From NCBI RefSeq assembly GCF_001280565.1, contig NZ_LGRO01000001.1, positions 558,001 through 622,000 on the forward strand: a stretch of 64,000 nt of DNA. Reading direction: 5' to 3'. Position 1 is the stretch's first letter. Each line of letters begins with the position of its first letter. The notes beneath the pieces were generated by a model. It saw nothing but the letters and a program-made list of their open reading frames with translations. It was not told the DNA's origin and did no database searches. Positions 3,758 through 35,111 of the stretch are shown here, piece by piece. The DNA comes from Sulfobacillus thermosulfidooxidans (GTDB lineage Bacteria > Bacillota > Sulfobacillia > Sulfobacillales > Sulfobacillaceae). The position numbers and the translations under genes are program-made.

Positions 3758-4420
3758 ATGGGATCGGCCACGACATGGGCTCTGTTGCTCGCTGCGGGCA
3801 CTGTGGCATTCATCCACGCGGTCTTGCCGGATCATTGGATGCCTATTGCTCTCGTCGCACGAGCACAGCGATGGTCCCGAACGCGGACTCTGCGCATCGC
3901 CCTGGGGACGGGAGTGGGTCATGTGCTAGGCACGGTTGTTTTGGCCGGCTTGGTGTTAGTGGTGGGGTATGGGGTTAAAGGAATTCTGCGTTGGGACGTC
4001 CCGCTTGTCGGGGCGGTGCTGGTTGTTACTGGTGTGGCATTTGGAATTAGGACGCGAGGACATAGCCGACGACATCATACCCATGACCATGACGCACATT
4101 ACGATCAGGCCCCCACACACCAAGCCCACTCGCATTCTTCAAGGCGGAGCGCCTGGCTCATTTCCACCGGAATTGCTGCGTCGCCCGATGTGAGCGTTTT
4201 GCCCGTGTTTGTCGGCGCACTAGCCGTGAATGGTCCTACCGCCGTGGCCGTCGTCGTCGTGTTTGCCTTGGTAACGATTCTCACCATCGCCGGGTTGAGT
4301 CTCATAGCTCTTTGGGGAGGATATCAGGTGGCGGAAGGAACCTGGCTCGAAAACCACGCCCATCAGGTCACCGCGGTAGTCCTCATTGTCTTGGGGTTAG
4401 TGATGGTGATCGGGGGATAA
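3758..4420 (+). CDS. Polytopic membrane protein, nickel/cobalt (RcnA/NiCoT/UreH-like) transporter family
   Basis: A 220-residue integral membrane protein with about six hydrophobic segments. The first contains HAVLPDHW, the HX4DH signature of nickel/cobalt permeases. A cytosolic loop near residues 107-130 is very His-rich (HHTHDHDAHYDQ and following), typical of RcnA-like metal exporters and UreH-like proteins. The likely role is divalent metal (Ni or Co) export or homeostasis. Start ATG preceded by CAGGAGAC. It may be transcribed with the upstream sigma factor. Substrate and direction are inferred. Confidence 0.65.
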   Translation: MGSATTWALLLAAGTVAFIHAVLPDHWMPIALVARAQRWSRTRTLRIALGTGVGHVLGTVVLAGLVLVVGYGVKGILRWDVPLVGAVLVVTGVAFGIRTRGHSRRHHTHDHDAHYDQAPTHQAHSHSSRRSAWLISTGIAASPDVSVLPVFVGALAVNGPTAVAVVVVFALVTILTIAGLSLIALWGGYQVAEGTWLENHAHQVTAVVLIVLGLVMVIGG

Positions 4421-4599
4421 TCGACTGACAGACCGTCCTCACACCCACGGCAAACAATGGGGTGCTTTAGCCTAAGATTCTGAGATTGTCATTAAACCCT
4501 GCCAAGAAGGATAGATAGGATTATGGTACATTACCATTTCTTTTATGCCTGGGGCATTCTGGAATAAGAGTCTTTATGCATGGTGACAGACACGGCGAC

Positions 4600-4926
4600 G
4601 AGCTGTCCATGATCAGCGAGCAGCCAAAGATGGTTGCGGTGGGTAGTTAGCGGGAACCGAGACCCCTACACGAAAATCAAGGACCGTTGCGGTTGCGTGA
4701 GCGGTTGACAATGGATGTATGCGCCAAAGGGCATTCCTGCCATTACCCATGCATGGGAACCGTTGGCCGCCACCCCGACCGGATTTTTTATGGGGCAATT
4801 ATTCGGGAGCACGCCAGATGGGGTAAAAATCCGGAGTACGCGGTTATTGTCTGCGCCCTGCGGATTGGGGTATAAAACGCCATTGGCCACTCAGACCCAT
4901 GGACCGTTCACAAGGACGACACCTGG
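4600..4926 (-). pseudogene. Decayed coding sequence, minus strand
   Basis: A minus-strand frame at 4666-4890 reads like a genuine protein fragment (NNRVLRIFTPSGVLPNN and more), but it has no ribosome binding site, is preceded in frame by a stop, and its continuation lies in another frame. It may be the former C-terminal part of the frameshifted gene immediately upstream (4927-5416). Family not recognised. Confidence 0.3.
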
Positions 4927-5416
4927 TTAGTTTCCTAGATGCCCCGTTAGGGGACCTGTGACGATTTGTTCAAGAACTTTTCCTGTTTCGGCCCTCACGA
5001 TGAACAAACTATCACTATAGGGAGAGGACGCTGAATTCGACCATTGATTCGGGATACCTGACACGGCCACTAACCACAGATATTGGGTTCCAATGAGGGG
5101 AACCAGCGAATTCGCACGAATGAAACGGGTACTGGTCACCCGAATGGGCATCGTTCGCGCGTCAGCCGGATACACATGATCAATATAGGTCATGACCGAC
5201 GTAATCGCGCTGGTTTGTGAGGTGGCCACCTTGAGTCCGCTTGACACGGGCAACAGGCTTTGCGGCCAAATCCGTAGGGACATACGTATTCAGATTAATT
5301 GGGAGGGGTGCCGCTGTTGCTGTAGGGGCAATGCTCAATTTCCATACCCCAAACCATCCAGCTCCTACAAGGACAATGCCTCCGCTTGCCATCCCCCACA
5401 AACGCCTTTGAGTCAT
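4927..5416 (-). pseudogene. Frameshifted gene for a membrane-anchored extracytoplasmic protein
   Basis: Translation from an ATG at 5416 (GGGGAG upstream) gives an N-terminal membrane segment (RLWGMASGGIVLVGAGWFG) and about 50 further residues. The sensible protein then continues in a second frame (SSGLKVATSQTSAITSVMTY and on to 4927). The two frames overlap between about 5180 and 5283, so a one-base change near 5240-5270 has broken the gene, unless it is a sequencing error. The product would be an anchored exported protein of about 160 residues of unknown function. Confidence 0.5.
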
Positions 5417-5525
5417 AGATTCGCTCCCCGATTTCTGCACTCCCAGACTTGAACGGTATTGATCAAGGAATAGTCAACATTTCGATATTGACCATCCTGT
5501 TGGATCTCCAAAATATTACGATAAT

Positions 5526-5864
5526 TTAGTGTGTTTCGCGTGAAACCTTGCGTTCGATTAACAGCCACGACGACAATCGTAAAATGGGAATAATTAAGGC
5601 TAAGACAAGCCAAATAGGAGCGAACGATGAGAACACGAAACCAGCAAGGCCTAATGGAGTCATGATCGCGATAAGCCATATCATGGCATCACTGTTGAGC
5701 GGTGCGCCCGCGGGATTGCCACCTTGTGCTCGTTCCCCGTAACAGCGAGAATGGTAGGGCACAATGAGGCCCGGCCATTGCAAAATGGTAACGAGGTCAT
5801 TTTTTGAGACAATCTCATCCCCGCAGCGGGAGCAAAAAATGATATTCTTCGATTGCTCTTCCAA
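5526..5864 (-). CDS. Small zinc-ribbon membrane protein
   Basis: About 112 residues. The N-terminal part has FCSRCGDE and a later SRCYGE, which look like a zinc-binding ribbon. The C-terminal half has two membrane helices (DAMIWLIAIMTPLGLAGFVF and IWLVLALIIPILRL). AAGGAG lies 9 bases before a TTG at 5864, the start chosen; a GTG at 5870 is too close to that box, and the longer frame would overlap the upstream gene. It follows the secreted-protein gene 5893-6879 with 28 bases between them and may be in its operon. Function unknown. Confidence 0.55.
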   Translation of the reverse strand: MEEQSKNIIFCSRCGDEIVSKNDLVTILQWPGLIVPYHSRCYGERAQGGNPAGAPLNSDAMIWLIAIMTPLGLAGFVFSSFAPIWLVLALIIPILRLSSWLLIERKVSRETH

Positions 5865-5892
5865 TCTCACTGTCTCCTTAACGGTTTTCTTT

Positions 5893-6879
5893 CTAACTAT
5901 TGTACCAGGGCACGTACGTATAAATGCCACGCTGAAAATTTGACTCGGCTTCTTGATCCATCAATGAAGAATTGTTCCAAAGATAAGAAAAATCTGTATG
6001 GATAGGTCCATATGCCGGCGGCAACCAATTATATGTGGTACCCGTGGTATAGCTTGATCCGTCAGGGACATACGAGATGGTCGCATGCTTAAACCATTGC
6101 CGATCGCCCGTTGTGAGACACAATACCCAGCTTGCTCCATTCCATACATAAACATTCTTATAGCCATAACGGTAGGTATGCCAGAGTTCGGAAGACATCG
6201 GAACATAGCTATTCAACGATATCCCTAGGAGATTGGCTACATCCAGAACGATATTACCCACTGTCGAAAGAAAATACGTGGCAATATCGTCGGCGATTGT
6301 ATACGCAATAGTCAAATCGGAGGCATATTTTGTGCCCCCATCATCTATATGCATGGTCGAACTGGGTTGATATGTGGTAGTGACATTGATGGCGCCAACA
6401 GGAATGTTAATTTCATTGGACTTAATAACTATTGAGGATGACGATGGGTGCTGCGCTTCCCACTGGCGGGTCAATTGCTGTTGGAATTGGGGCGTCTGAG
6501 ATTCTTGCTTAAGTTGAACAATGTACGCATTTTGCCGTGCGATAGTGGCCGCTGTCGGAGCCGTTCCCGTTACCGAATCGAATTGGGCATGATGCAGATG
6601 ATTATATTGAGCGATCCATTTTTGTTCTTGCGTCACAATTTGTGTCGAAGTGAGTCCTCCAGACCGGGGAGCAGGGTCTGGTGATGACGAGACGACATTA
6701 TAAGGAGAGGTTAGCCCTTGGTTAATGGATAAACTGCGTTCACTGTTAACGATAACTTTTCCTTCAGCAAAGGGCATCGGGCCTGTGTTAGTAGTGGTGC
6801 CAACACGCCCAGGAGAGAAGGGGCTTAATATACAAGTTCCTGCCAGTATCCCCATTGTTTTGACGATCAAAGAATTCAC
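5893..6879 (-). CDS. Secreted protein of unknown function
   Basis: A 328-residue protein with an N-terminal signal-like segment (VNSLIVKTMGILAGTCIL) followed by low-complexity Ser/Thr/Pro-rich sequence, a Gln-rich helical stretch at about 90-150, and a Tyr/Trp-rich C-terminal half (KNVYVWNGASWVLCLTTGDR). GTG start chosen because AAAGGTGG lies just upstream. The composition suggests a surface or extracellular protein. No enzyme motif is visible. Transcribed divergently from the HTH-TPR regulator at 7219 across a 340-base gap with palindromes, so that regulator might control it. Confidence 0.6.
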   Translation of the reverse strand: MNSLIVKTMGILAGTCILSPFSPGRVGTTTNTGPMPFAEGKVIVNSERSLSINQGLTSPYNVVSSSPDPAPRSGGLTSTQIVTQEQKWIAQYNHLHHAQFDSVTGTAPTAATIARQNAYIVQLKQESQTPQFQQQLTRQWEAQHPSSSSIVIKSNEINIPVGAINVTTTYQPSSTMHIDDGGTKYASDLTIAYTIADDIATYFLSTVGNIVLDVANLLGISLNSYVPMSSELWHTYRYGYKNVYVWNGASWVLCLTTGDRQWFKHATISYVPDGSSYTTGTTYNWLPPAYGPIHTDFSYLWNNSSLMDQEAESNFQRGIYTYVPWYNS

Positions 6880-7218
6880 GATCTTTCCACCTTTCAAACT
6901 TTAGGATATTTGGTAATCGCACGGTGAACTCGATAGGTGCTAGTTCTTACTATGAAAGCTGGGAAGCCGCAGGGCAAAAGGTAACGATGTGACTCATTAT
7001 CACGCCTGTTCCAGTGGATTAAAAACCATCTCATGTGGCACATGAGGGAGATATGCGATTTTGTCTAGAGTGACAGAGTGAGGGCTCTGGCTGGCAATTG
7101 AATGAAAGGACGATCTTTCTGAGGGAATTTTTTGAAAGTCGCCAGCATTCTGCACGATAAATCGGTATGCTAGTGACAACATGTCACGTCAGTTTTCGTC
7201 ATGTGAGGAAGGATTCCT
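6880..7218. promoter_or_regulatory. Divergent control region with two perfect inverted repeats
   Basis: This 340-base region separates a secreted-protein gene (minus) from the HTH-TPR regulator (plus). At 7030-7046 lies CTCATGT-GGC-ACATGAG. At 7173-7187 lies GTGACA-ACA-TGTCAC, directly after a TATGCT that could be a -10 box and 31 bases before the regulator start. The second palindrome is well placed for autoregulation. Both are seen directly; their use as operators is inferred. Confidence 0.5.
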
Positions 7219-8412
7219 ATGGGATTTGGTCAAATCTTACGCACGTTGCGGGAAGAGCGGCATTTGACCCAACACGATTTAGTGGCACCGGGATTGTCCC
7301 GCACCTTAATCAGTCATTATGAACACGAACGCCGCTTACCGTCATTTGAACATGTCCAGTACTTGGCTCAACGTTTACAGGTGGCGACGGATGTGTTTTT
7401 TGGGGGCCACGGTATGGATACGGCGCATGCGCAATTTTTGCACTGTTTGAAGGCCGGAGAACAAGCAGAAAGACGGGAACACTGGGCAGACGCACAATCA
7501 TGGTGGGATCACGCCTTGTGGATTGCGACGACCTTTCACTTTGTGACGTGGATTCCATTGATTCACTGGCACCAAGTACAAACGGCCTGGGCGCAACAGC
7601 AGTGGAAGGCCGTGGTGCAATGGGGCGTGCCGCTCCTTGTTCATGGCCAATCGGACTTGTCCCGTGAAGATGCTTACCGGTTATTTGCGATTTTGGGTCA
7701 TGCGCATCGAGAGTTGGATCAATTGTCGACCGCCGAGCTCTTCTATCAGTTGGCCCAAACCCGATCGGGGATCCAAACCGAACAGGGATTAAAGATGATG
7801 ATTAACCGGGCATCATGTCGATGGCTTCTCGGCGACTGTCGCGAAGCGGCCCGGTTATTTGACGGGGTGCGGCATGAAGCCGCGGATCATCATTGGGCGA
7901 GTTTAGAAGCCTGGGCACAGATTGGTTGGACTACAGCGCAATTGAGTCAGGATCGGCCGACGGACTGTCTGGAGGCGTTGGATCGAGCCGCCCATCTGGC
8001 GGACGCATTGGCCGATCTCGCATTACAGCAAGCGGTTCAGCAGAATCGTTTAGTGATCGCACGCATGAGAGGCCAATGGAATGACGTTGATCACATATTT
8101 TCCGAATTAAGGACGTTGCGTTCTCCCCTCCCGCTGTCCTGGATTACGGAACGGTTGTATTGGTGTGGAGCCACGGGAGCCTGGGAGGAAGGGCAGGAGT
8201 GGGTGCGCAAAGCCGAGCAGTGTGCTGGCCTCGGACAAGAGGTTCGCGATTTTTGGCGAGCCACCGCGGTATTTTTTCAAGCATGGGGATCCCCACGGCG
8301 AAGTGCCTTAGCGCAACGCCTGGCCACTCTCCAGAATATGACGTTGGCTGAAAGCCTGGCCATTTTTCGATGGGAAGAAGAGGAGGGAGCAAGCAATGAC
8401 ATGGCGCATTAG
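7219..8412 (+). CDS. HTH-TPR transcriptional regulator, RRNPP (Rgg/PlcR/PrgX-like) type
   Basis: 397 residues. An N-terminal XRE-family helix-turn-helix (about 5-60; LRTLREERHLTQHDL, then RTLISHYEHERRLPS) is followed by about 330 residues of helical TPR-like repeats rich in Trp, Ala, Leu and Gln. This is the architecture of RRNPP regulators, which bind re-imported secreted peptides in Firmicutes and their plasmids. Start ATG has GAGGAAGG in front. The 3' end overlaps a 31-codon gene for an exported-peptide-like product (8396-8491), the usual gene order of such cassettes. A palindrome at 7173-7187 could be its own operator. Confidence 0.75.
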   Translation: MGFGQILRTLREERHLTQHDLVAPGLSRTLISHYEHERRLPSFEHVQYLAQRLQVATDVFFGGHGMDTAHAQFLHCLKAGEQAERREHWADAQSWWDHALWIATTFHFVTWIPLIHWHQVQTAWAQQQWKAVVQWGVPLLVHGQSDLSREDAYRLFAILGHAHRELDQLSTAELFYQLAQTRSGIQTEQGLKMMINRASCRWLLGDCREAARLFDGVRHEAADHHWASLEAWAQIGWTTAQLSQDRPTDCLEALDRAAHLADALADLALQQAVQQNRLVIARMRGQWNDVDHIFSELRTLRSPLPLSWITERLYWCGATGAWEEGQEWVRKAEQCAGLGQEVRDFWRATAVFFQAWGSPRRSALAQRLATLQNMTLAESLAIFRWEEEEGASNDMAH

Positions 8413-8491
8413 GCATCGCATTCTCGGGATTCTTATTGGACTTTTGCTGATTGGCCCGTTGTCGGGGGCAATTCCGCCCCCTATGCATTAA
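8396..8491 (+). CDS. 31-residue pro-peptide candidate, putative signalling peptide of the upstream regulator
   Basis: A tiny gene overlapping the last 17 bases of the regulator in another frame. The ribosome binding site GAGGAGGG is excellent. The product starts with a basic segment (MTWRIRHR), continues with a hydrophobic export helix (ILGILIGLLLIG) and ends with PLSGAIPPPMH, which looks like the releasable part. Size, basic-hydrophobic-polar layout and coupling to an HTH-TPR regulator match PapR, Phr and Rgg-associated pheromone genes. The proline-rich C-terminus is unlike known pheromones that I recall. Prediction from sequence only. Confidence 0.6.
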   Translation: MTWRIRHRILGILIGLLLIGPLSGAIPPPMH

Positions 8492-29255: not shown

Positions 29256-29330
29256 CTACGCAGGTTTTGGTTCATCCTTCTTTCTCGAAGGATACGTAAA
29301 GGTTCCGCTCCACTTGCGGTACAAGTTTAT
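29110..29330 (-). ncRNA. Candidate guide-RNA (reRNA/omega-RNA) region at the 3' end of the IS607-type tnpB
   Basis: TnpB RNAs derive from the 3' end of the gene and the right end. Here the minus strand after the stop folds readily: AGTCCCCCAGTGGTGGGG, and GGTTGATC pairing with GATCAACC about 30 bases later (around 29133-29176). The exact right end and guide are not determined. Confidence 0.4.
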
Positions 29331-30764
29331 AATCCCGACAAAATCGGCATCGGCTCGATAGACGTGATCCGGATTCGAACACGTAAACGTGTGCCGTTGG
29401 CGGGAACCCACCTGCCGATAGTTAGCGGGGCAATGCGGGCACATTTGCGACGTATAGGCGGGATTGCGCTCCACCGTCAGGATCCCCTCGCGAAACGCGA
29501 GGTCCCGCACCCACTGCACGATCTGGCCGCGCAGCCAGTAAGCCCGCTTGTGGTTCTTTCGCCCAGACCGGCTCATCTTTTCTTGCGGTGCCCGGTACTT
29601 CCGCAGATACTCGAACACGATTACCTGGGCTCCGTGTTGACACGCGAAATCGACGATCCGGCGGGCAACCTGCCGCGCAGCATTCTCGTCGAGATGCCGG
29701 ACTTTCTGCCAAAGGTGCACGTTGTCGTGGACATTCTTGGGCAACCTGCCGCTCTGTGCCCGTTTTTTGCTGATCGCATTGAGCAGAAGATGGCGCTTAT
29801 GGTTTAGTGCGCTCCCATGGATAAACTGGGTGGCGAGCAATTGGTCGAGCCGAAAGGCTCCCATCACGGCTAACCGATTGACCCCCAGATCCACGGTGAC
29901 GACAGGCAGACCCGGATTCTTCTGGAGTTGTTCCTTGGCCTTTTTGGGCGTCTGCACGTATTTCTCCAGCGGCACGTGCAAGGCAAAGCGCAGATTGCCG
30001 GGATATCGTTTGTCTCGTTGGGCATAAAGCGACAGCGACCGTGCGACCCAAACCTTGGGACGCAGCGCAGCGCGCTCTTCATCCGTCCAGGGCTCGTTCG
30101 GGGCTTTTCTTGCCTTGATCTGTGCCGTCTCTGTACGGATCCGCTGGCTTTCGGCTTGAGCGGCCCGGAGCGCTTCGGAGTCGCGCAGGGGCAATGTGAT
30201 CGGCAAGGGCACTTTCTGCCACTCACCTTCGTACCACAACTTGACGGCGATAAACGTCTGTTGCACGGTGGCTTGCGGCAACAAGTCAAAGTCGGGATAA
30301 TCCACCATGTCCGCATAGAAGGTGACGGGCTCGTTCGGTTCACCGAGCCGTGGCTCCCGACCTTTCTTCCCGTTTTGTTCCCACTGATTGAGCAGAACGA
30401 ACCAGCCTTTGACTTTGCCCGCCGCGTGATTGATCGCCGCCCGGCGCAATCCCGTGGGCATGCCTTTCGCTTGGGGGATGGCTTCTAGGGGCATCAACGG
30501 GTGAGGATGCGCTGGGGTGGACAGGGTATGCCGTTCCGCAAGAGTGAGTAATTCTTGGTTTGTCCAGTGCCGCTCCGCTGGTTCGCCGTTTTTCTTGGTG
30601 TACGATACGTGTTCCTTAAACACGCCCCGGTGTGCCACAAAGAAGTCCATGTAAAATGCGATTACGCGGTTGTATAAGACTTGCGTTTCGACAATGGCAT
30701 TTCGCTTGATGGCATGGACTTCCTTATGGACACCCAGTTTGATGGTCTTCGTGACCATCGCCAT
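29256..30764 (-). CDS. tnpB: TnpB RNA-guided nuclease, long form, IS607-type element
   Basis: 502 residues, longer than the usual 370-430. The RuvC parts are present: VVTVDLGVNRLA (Asp), VIVFEYLRKY (Glu), a zinc ribbon MCPHC ... FTCSNPDH, and ADADFVGIIN (last Asp). The N-terminal 260 residues hold the recognition lobe. AAGGTGAG precedes the ATG at 30764. The start lies inside the 3' end of the truncated tnpA (30724-31167), the normal IS607 order. TnpB cuts DNA next to a short motif under guidance of an RNA from the element's right end. Nuclease residues look intact. Confidence 0.85.
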   Translation of the reverse strand: MAMVTKTIKLGVHKEVHAIKRNAIVETQVLYNRVIAFYMDFFVAHRGVFKEHVSYTKKNGEPAERHWTNQELLTLAERHTLSTPAHPHPLMPLEAIPQAKGMPTGLRRAAINHAAGKVKGWFVLLNQWEQNGKKGREPRLGEPNEPVTFYADMVDYPDFDLLPQATVQQTFIAVKLWYEGEWQKVPLPITLPLRDSEALRAAQAESQRIRTETAQIKARKAPNEPWTDEERAALRPKVWVARSLSLYAQRDKRYPGNLRFALHVPLEKYVQTPKKAKEQLQKNPGLPVVTVDLGVNRLAVMGAFRLDQLLATQFIHGSALNHKRHLLLNAISKKRAQSGRLPKNVHDNVHLWQKVRHLDENAARQVARRIVDFACQHGAQVIVFEYLRKYRAPQEKMSRSGRKNHKRAYWLRGQIVQWVRDLAFREGILTVERNPAYTSQMCPHCPANYRQVGSRQRHTFTCSNPDHVYRADADFVGIINLYRKWSGTFTYPSRKKDEPKPA

Positions 30765-31167
30765 GTGGCTCACCTTCTTTCATCGCATTCACGAGGTGTT
30801 TGGTTTTCTGCCGAAATTCCTGCGAACGCTTGCCATATAACCGTGCCGAAAACACGGTAATGATCGTGAGCAGATCTTCTGTTAATTCTTCTTGCGATGT
30901 TTTCGATTCCTGAACGTGCGTGGACTCAATGGTGACGCCGTGGCTGTTCAAATATCGTTCCAGATAGCGATAGCCAAAACGTGCCAAACGATCCGGGTAT
31001 TCAATCAGCAATCGTTGGAATTCCCGTTGTTCGGCCATGATCAAGAGATAATGCAACTCTTTGCGGTTTTCGTTAATCCCTGATGCTTGCTCTTGAAACA
31101 CCCGCACCACGTCCTCAAAGACAAACCGAATATCCTGTGCCATCGTGAAATAGAGCGAAGTCATCAA
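30724..31167 (-). pseudogene. tnpA: IS607-type serine transposase TnpA, N-terminally truncated
   Basis: The frame keeps the second half of the catalytic domain (VVRVFQEQASGINENRKEL, YPDRLARFGYRYLERYL) and the C-terminal part (LLTIITVFSARLYGKRSQEF), but has lost the MerR-type DNA-binding domain and the segment with the catalytic serine. Directly upstream (31180-31240) lies the right end of an IsrB element, so an insertion and deletion have removed the start. It cannot transpose by itself. Confidence 0.7.
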
Positions 31168-33929: not shown

Positions 33930-34150
33930 ACGACTCCCCACGCCTAAAGGCGGGGGCTTCTCGGTTCATTTCGGCGGCGTATGCTCCGACCGATCCCCGA
34001 AGGCTCCGTCCGAGCCTGACCAATTGATTTAGACGACCAACGCCCGCTTGAGGATGTTTTGTGCGGCGTTTATGTCTCTGTCTTGAACATACCCACAATG
34101 TTCGCATCGGTGCACACGGTCAGACAGTTTCTTTGGGACGATTTCACCGC
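33930..34150 (-). ncRNA. Candidate reRNA (omega-RNA) of the lone tnpB element
   Basis: By the rule for IS605-type TnpB, the RNA covers the end of the gene and the right end. The minus strand after the stop has GCTCGGACGGAGC, GATCGGTCGGAGC and the terminal palindrome, with the guide following as ACTTACCCCCCGCACTGG, i.e. the interrupted host gene. Confidence 0.5.
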
Positions 34151-35111
34151 AATTTGAGCACAGTTGACTCGTGTTCTTTGGATCAACGAGTACGACACGA
34201 CGACCAGCTTCTTCCGCTTTGTACGTGGTGTACTGCACAAGTTGATTCCACGACGCATCCACGATGCTTTTAGCCAGGTGATGATTCTTCACCATTCCCT
34301 GCACGTTCAGGTTTTCAAAGGCCATGAGTCCATACCCGTTGACCAGTCTTCGCGAGACTTTGTGTGCATAGTCCCTGCGTTGATTCGCAATATGCTCATG
34401 CACTTTAGCGAGTTCACGAATCGCTTTACGACGTCGAGAAGACCCTTTCTTCTTGCGCGATACGGATCGTTGTTTTTTTCGTAGTTTTCGTTCGGATTCA
34501 CGCAGAAACCTCGGATGTTCGTAAAACTCCCCGTCGGACGTAATCGCAAGGTGTTTAACACCCAGATCGATGCCGACGGTTTTATGGGACTCTGGCAAGA
34601 TATTCGGTTCCACTTCACACGATAGGCAAGCGTAATACTTCCCGTTTTTCACAACGACCGTACACATTTTAATTTTTCCTTGCGGCTGACGATGCAGTTT
34701 GATTTTGACTTCGCCAATTTTTGAAAGGACTAACCTGTTACCGTTGATCGAATAGCCGCCTTGTGGATACGTAAACGAATTGTATCGACTGACCGATTTG
34801 AAACGTGGATAGCCAGGTTTCTCCCCAGTCTTCACACGCCGAAAAAAGGCTTGAAATGCTTTGTCCAGTCGCTTTACCACATCCTGCAATACCTGCGAAT
34901 GAACCTGTTTTAACGCAGGAATGTATTTTTTACGCTCAGTTAACGTGTTCGCCTGATTGTAGTAATTCAACGTGGTTTTGTCAGTGTTATAAGCAACCCG
35001 TCGTTCGTCAAGAAGACGATTGTAAAGCAGGCGACAGCGTTCTAGGGTGAATTGAATTTTCGCCTCTTGTTCTTTCGTAGGGTAGAGCCTATACTTGTAC
35101 GTTTTCCGCAT
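34029..35111 (-). CDS. tnpB: TnpB RNA-guided nuclease (IS1341-like)
   Basis: 360 residues, typical length. N-terminal TYKYRLYPTKEQEAKI, RuvC-I VGIDLGVKHLA, a long basic helix (RKLRKKQRSVSRKKKGSSRR), RuvC-II LMAFENLNV, zinc ribbon LCSNCGEI ... CEHCGYVQDRDINAA with the last catalytic Asp. All catalytic positions are present, so an active nuclease is plausible. ATG preceded by GTGAGGTGGG. No transposase in the element. TnpB keeps the element in place by cutting empty sites. Confidence 0.9.
   Translation of the reverse strand: MRKTYKYRLYPTKEQEAKIQFTLERCRLLYNRLLDERRVAYNTDKTTLNYYNQANTLTERKKYIPALKQVHSQVLQDVVKRLDKAFQAFFRRVKTGEKPGYPRFKSVSRYNSFTYPQGGYSINGNRLVLSKIGEVKIKLHRQPQGKIKMCTVVVKNGKYYACLSCEVEPNILPESHKTVGIDLGVKHLAITSDGEFYEHPRFLRESERKLRKKQRSVSRKKKGSSRRRKAIRELAKVHEHIANQRRDYAHKVSRRLVNGYGLMAFENLNVQGMVKNHHLAKSIVDASWNQLVQYTTYKAEEAGRRVVLVDPKNTSQLCSNCGEIVPKKLSDRVHRCEHCGYVQDRDINAAQNILKRALVV

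Follow-up and report, generated by a model that had tools for sequence, protein, structure and literature searches.

At this locus of Sulfobacillus thermosulfidooxidans, the gene of a helix-turn-helix (HTH) regulator runs into a very short, unannotated gene for a basic and hydrophobic peptide, and the gene of a secreted protein diverges from the pair. The window, by which we mean the whole stretch of 64,000 nucleotides that was analysed, is part of a 3.2-Mb contig in a genome of 3.83 Mb. Its relevant features are given below.

5526-5930, minus strand: small CxxC membrane protein, start codon uncertain; the next gene behind that of the secreted protein
5893-6879, minus strand: divergent secreted protein, the probable regulated cargo, with a GTG start at 6879 behind AAAGGTGG
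7030-7046, no strand: perfect palindrome of 17 bp, CTCATGTGGCACATGAG, between the two divergent genes; candidate operator
7173-7187, no strand: palindrome GTGACA-ACA-TGTCAC, unique in the genome, at chance level; possible autoregulatory operator
7219-8412, plus strand: HTH and TPR-like regulator of 397 aa, with the HTH at residues 3-59 by Pfam and the TPRs by family profile
8380-8387, plus strand: Shine-Dalgarno sequence GAGGAGGG of the micro-ORF, 8 nt before its ATG
8396-8491, plus strand: propeptide gene of 31 codons with an ATG start and the product MTWRIRHRILGILIGLLLIGPLSGAIPPPMH, the sole such ORF in the window
8468-8485, plus strand: predicted signal core AIPPPM, which aligns with the family core x-Psi-P-P-x-Psi

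The original prediction proposed here a quorum-sensing cassette of the RRNPP type, in which a regulator is paired with a small exported peptide, and its description of the small gene was accurate. The micro-ORF overlaps the 3' end of the regulator gene by 17 nt behind the strong ribosome-binding site at 8380-8387, and translation confirmed a product that is basic, then hydrophobic, and ends in PLSGAIPPPMH. Under fixed criteria (ribosome-binding site, basic N-terminus, hydropathy of at least 2.6 and 20-60 aa), it was the only match in 2x64 kb of window sequence, and such a micro-ORF was present at 1 of the 125 long-ORF ends examined. The hydrophobic stretch, which follows the basic N-terminus, has a hydropathy of 2.98 over 12 residues; from this composition, we infer that the propeptide may be exported.

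The regulator was likewise predicted as an HTH and TPR-like protein of 397 residues, and both halves of that reading are supported, the first by Pfam and the second by family profile. Residues 3-59 match HTH_3 (E 9.8e-6) and HTH_31 (E 3e-6), and the PADLOC matches are confined to the HTH part or reach barely past it. Outside the HTH, the window protein alone matched no Pfam TPR model; its homologues on two Alicyclobacillus plasmids match TPR_12, with E values of 1.9e-8 for plasmid p1 of Alicyclobacillus sp. TC (pTC) and 1.1e-14 for pAACI02 of A. acidocaldarius DSM 446. A profile built from 11 family members matches designed TPR proteins with an E value of 3e-27, the best stretch lying at about profile positions 157-264, and its HTH matches the Rgg2-type chain 4yv6 (E 1.6e-5) and ComR 7n1n (E 5.9e-5). 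The AlphaFold2 single-sequence model of the regulator is all-helical at low confidence (pLDDT 46). It is thus the sequence profiles, rather than the model, that make the presence of TPRs in the regulator family well supported. RapH_N (PF18801) has no match anywhere in the genome, and neither the window protein nor its homologues on pTC and pAACI02 match RNPP_C (PF18768); by these domain tests, the regulator is neither a Rap nor a PlcR-type protein.

Homologues of the regulator are found in Alicyclobacillaceae genomes and on the two plasmids. The pTC relative is full-length and 30% identical over 357 aa, and pAACI02 carries a further one. An alignment of three members, used as the query against the Bacilli and then against one family, to which the pAACI02 genome belongs, recovered some ten more loci with E values from about 1e-68 to 1e-124. 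The window regulator is 20-31% identical to the family members, and in its own genus and class the similarity is weaker or at HTH level only. Scans of genome contigs and viral contigs with the window protein and with the three-member alignment gave no relatives; a whole-genome search with the same alignment did recover them. In a maximum-likelihood tree, the window and Alicyclobacillaceae regulators split from paralogues of the Sulfobacillus lineage with 100% support. One such paralogue of the genus, C1:2731638, was considered as a family member and rejected, as it lies outside the clade and lacks such a micro-ORF. Since the regulator family occurs in one genome among the 154 searched of its own class and in several genomes of another class, the cassette appears to be shared between this Sulfobacillus genome and the Alicyclobacillaceae through horizontal transfer. 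The pAACI02 regulator (L030, 4782-5981) has no recognisable HTH and has kept its peptide gene, and may possibly be a Rap-like or titrating receptor.

The genes around the cassette point to what it may control. Two Alicyclobacillaceae genomes, G689 and G624, carry homologues of the secreted protein (45-52% identical) at the cassette or close to it, and in both a homologue of the CxxC protein (39-41% identical) follows directly behind the secreted-protein gene. The G689 contig starts inside a regulator copy and continues with the peptide gene, the secreted protein (51%) and the CxxC protein (41%), whereas in G624 the two homologues stand near a decayed copy of the cassette. As gene order and strand in G689 are not those of the window, the association has outlasted rearrangement, which suggests that the secreted-protein and CxxC genes are functionally linked to the cassette. 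As their homologues lie directly behind the cassette in an Alicyclobacillaceae genome, these two genes are its likely target. Other copies have different neighbours: Peptidase_A4 acid-protease genes diverge from the cassette in two genomes (L121, 8980-10044; L127, 9735-10991), others face proteins of no known family with export-like N-termini, and radical-SAM genes neighbour yet other copies. Downstream of the cassette in G601, the radical-SAM protein on the minus strand of L120 (5979-7070) resembles YydG peptide epimerases with an E value of 2e-22, below the curated cut-off.

The target had been proposed to be either the element itself or the divergent secreted-protein gene. The second half of this proposal gains from the homologues that adjoin the cassette in another class, and the first is less supported. 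Peptide signalling could still be real and serve mainly the maintenance or transfer of a surrounding mobile element, since the cassette is plasmid-borne in two Alicyclobacillus strains and plasmids are often controlled by RRNPP systems (PMC10075063). IS605-type and RRXRR genes also lie in the window, together with a DUF927 protein, an SSB and a GGDEF protein, so the cassette may belong to a region that is, or once was, mobile. However, in the parts of the gene contexts that were read, nothing immediately next to the cassette was recognised as a gene for transfer or replication, and it is the secreted-protein and CxxC homologues that travel with it instead; we therefore regard control of the element as improbable. 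Two window ORFs (29256-30773 and 34029-35111) have a Cas12f1-like TNB domain, one being a full IS605 OrfB/TnpB and the other longer and divergent.

As for the operator through which the regulator might act, the palindrome GTGACA-ACA-TGTCAC, noted in the original prediction 31 bases before the regulator start, is present as described and unique in the genome, but its 6-bp arms are not above chance on their own (0.7 expected in the 321-bp intergenic region), and we set it aside as evidence. The 7030-7046 palindrome, missed in that prediction, is better: its 8-bp arms were matched in 3% of shuffles, and it too is unique in the genome. On the minus strand a T-run comes after it, so that it may be a weak terminator instead. 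No operator common to the upstream regions of the homologues was seen.

The peptide gene recurs in the homologues. Wherever a regulator copy can be read to its 3' end and its frame is unbroken, in 14 of 14 cases with the window included, an adjacent micro-ORF is present, which overlaps the regulator or starts at most about 45 nt past its end. Where the regulator is broken, in G624, the peptide gene has gone; a second copy of the regulator in G601 is truncated and interrupted. Every one of the 14 peptides has a Pro-Pro core, as follows.

AIPPPM: window peptide
VIPPIM: A. acidocaldarius peptide
VIPPVL: G613, G601, G668 and the second G689 copy
VIPPIL: G668b and G689
VTPPVL: G575
PVPPIQ: G766
PLPPTL: G700
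SIPPHI: G700b
PSPPWL: G646
GSPPFL: TC

The motif [GAS]-x-[IVLTS]-PP-x-[LMIQF] occurs in 13 of these 14 peptides, compared with 3 of the 773 short ORFs called mechanically in the window, the micro-ORF itself being among the three. In nearly all peptides, the residue preceding the core is G, A or S, which could plausibly mark a signal-peptidase site. The window and pTC peptides have no significant pairwise likeness, and the family link of the peptides thus rests on the whole set together with the regulators.

Selection was estimated from close Alicyclobacillaceae copies, since the window protein is at most about 31% identical to its homologues and selection on its own copy is not directly measurable. 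Among those copies, pN/pS is 0.18 across the first 33 codons of the micro-ORF and 0.17 in the regulator (five copies). In six close copies, it falls from 0.28 in the signal part to about 0.04 in the core LKPADGVIPPxL and then rises to 0.79 in the tail. Purifying selection among close copies is thus strong on the core, whereas the residues after it are nearly unconstrained. This pattern indicates that the product matters, and most of all its Pro-Pro stretch. In four peptides, the chain stops two or three residues past Pro-Pro, consistent with a mature signal that ends close to the core. The original prediction was thus borne out on two further points, the retention of the micro-ORF beside the regulator homologues and protein-level selection upon it.

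The same pattern bears on what else the peptide might be. A short, basic and hydrophobic product could be a membrane-acting peptide, similar to a type I toxin or a holin, or an effector of the bacteriocin kind, transcribed together with its repressor; a hydrophobic peptide of 31 aa is typical of type I toxins, and the neighbours encode exported and membrane proteins. Yet the strongest constraint falls on the proline core behind the hydrophobic stretch and not on the hydrophobic part, the peptide is always accompanied by a TPR-type regulator, and an Rfam search of the locus gave no match, for instance to a known antitoxin RNA. This explanation is slightly less probable again than control of the element. 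A translational-coupling or leader peptide that tunes expression, with its amino-acid sequence secondary, would suit the stop/start overlaps of several copies (offsets of -17, -13 and -4), but is very improbable given a core conserved at the amino-acid level and the lack of a same-strand gene immediately downstream in the window.

Other regulator-peptide pairs were observed in the course of these searches. In the genome of the window, a second HTH-TPR regulator (L061, G000:C2:50000-59000, at 4286-5482, plus strand) has a divergent micro-ORF, MKHWQLVTMISLLLLWMATFKPADGYIPAPSPITDVYHMVL (3957-4082, minus strand), which is conserved in a sister species (L095, 1204-1329, minus strand; pN 0.032, pS 0.182) and shares KPADG-x-IP with the peptides of the Alicyclobacillaceae, a likeness that 0 of 5000 shuffles equalled. 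Four HTH-TPR regulators of the same class (L074, L075, L085 and L081, in G502, G088, G501 and G500) have behind them exported-looking peptides in which PVLPPDEY occurs once or twice; they form a further candidate family of the RRNPP type, one with tandem signals. In L083 (G279), an exported-looking peptide of 95 aa with four near-identical copies of ADLMGPEIPEL diverges from an HTH-TPR regulator, and in L073 (G054), an HTH-TPR regulator that matches RNPP_C (E 9.8e-13) lies adjacent to an exported-looking peptide of 64 aa with DPPDYPPG.

Taken together, the conserved micro-ORF, its selected core and the TPR profiles support the reading of the locus as a two-gene peptide-signalling cassette of the RRNPP type, to which we assign a probability of roughly 0.78. 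The pairing of regulator and peptide we infer from gene adjacency only, and direct sensing of the peptide is predicted. In the proposed mechanism, the 31-aa propeptide would be exported via its signal-like N-terminus, as its composition suggests; by analogy with the RRNPP family, it would then be cut around ...PLSG(A) to yield a signal of 6-7 residues, AIPPPM or IPPPMH, which would return into the cell through an oligopeptide permease, bind in the groove of the regulator's TPR domain and change its DNA binding. The bound regulator would switch transcription of 5893-6879 and 5526-5930, and possibly of its own operon too. More tentatively, and at somewhat less than even odds, the cassette may represent an RRNPP subfamily of its own, whose pheromone is centred on a diproline (x-Psi-Pro-Pro-x-Psi) and which moves partly on plasmids between unrelated acidophilic Bacillota while its secreted cargo changes. 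As close copies barely differ in the core and the scaffold recurs across classes, the signal of one species may be heard, fully or in part, by different species in one acid habitat.

If the main reading is true, peptide quorum sensing would extend to the Sulfobacillus lineage, with a Pro-Pro-centred pheromone code sufficiently conserved to be tested with a few synthetic hexapeptides. In bioleaching consortia, Sulfobacillus occurs together with other acidophiles, and a cross-genus signal would therefore bear on the coordination of such communities. The peptide genes are unannotated in both plasmid records examined (pTC p1 and pAACI02), which indicates that such systems lie hidden in existing genomes.

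The five-criterion RRNPP signature of PMC10075063 consists of a propeptide of 10-100 aa, its export (a Sec tag by SignalP, or SHP-like), a receptor of 250-500 aa with TPRs, and adjacent genes (-60 to 400 bp). The cassette agrees with four of the five computable points; for the fifth, export, the composition of the peptide is suggestive. The propeptide has 31 aa here and 31-46 aa over the family, the receptor has 397 aa with TPRs seen through TPR_12 in its homologues and the family profile rather than in the window protein alone, and the genes overlap by 17 nt in the window and are adjacent in 14 of 14 intact copies, the window among them; the size, spacing and ribosome-binding site of the micro-ORF also fit the published signature. 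The RRNPP_detector survey in the same paper lists, for the Alicyclobacillaceae, 10 biosynthetic clusters next to candidate RRNPP systems, and these candidates may include members of the present family; its main text names neither a Pro-Pro core nor Sulfobacillus. Our literature search found no paper naming RRNPP for the Sulfobacillus lineage.

Among the known systems, NprR-NprX of the Bacillus cereus group is similar in its HTH and TPR receptor of about 400 aa and in the short exported propeptide encoded immediately downstream. NprR controls secreted proteases, and Peptidase_A4 genes face two of the cassettes here. The NprX core, in contrast, is SKPDIVG and not x-Psi-PP-x-Psi, and NprR chains are absent from the best 60 PDB matches of the family profile. 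PlcR-PapR shares an HTH and TPR regulator, an adjacent exported peptide and exoprotein targets, and the control of secreted proteins by NprR and PlcR resembles the target pattern of the cassette. PlcR, however, is a shorter protein, with 293 residues in its PDB chain, and PapR7, ADLPFEF (PMC6568020), has no Pro-Pro core. Rgg-SHP and ComR-XIP are alike in their very short propeptides and in the HTH, which matches Rgg2-type and ComR chains, whereas the Pro-Pro core is absent from their peptides, and canonical TPRs are what the C-terminal domain of the present family matches. Export of the Rgg and ComR peptides is by PptAB. In Rap-Phr and AimR-AimP, receptor and propeptide genes are also adjacent and often lie on plasmids or phages, and the pAACI02 copy resembles Rap in having lost a recognisable HTH, but their peptide codes differ and the genome lacks the RapH_N domain. 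Finally, the usual RRNPP signal is the C-terminal end of the propeptide, whereas here the residues after the core are nearly unconstrained in close copies. We regard the cassette as very probably a signalling system of the known RRNPP type with a new peptide code.
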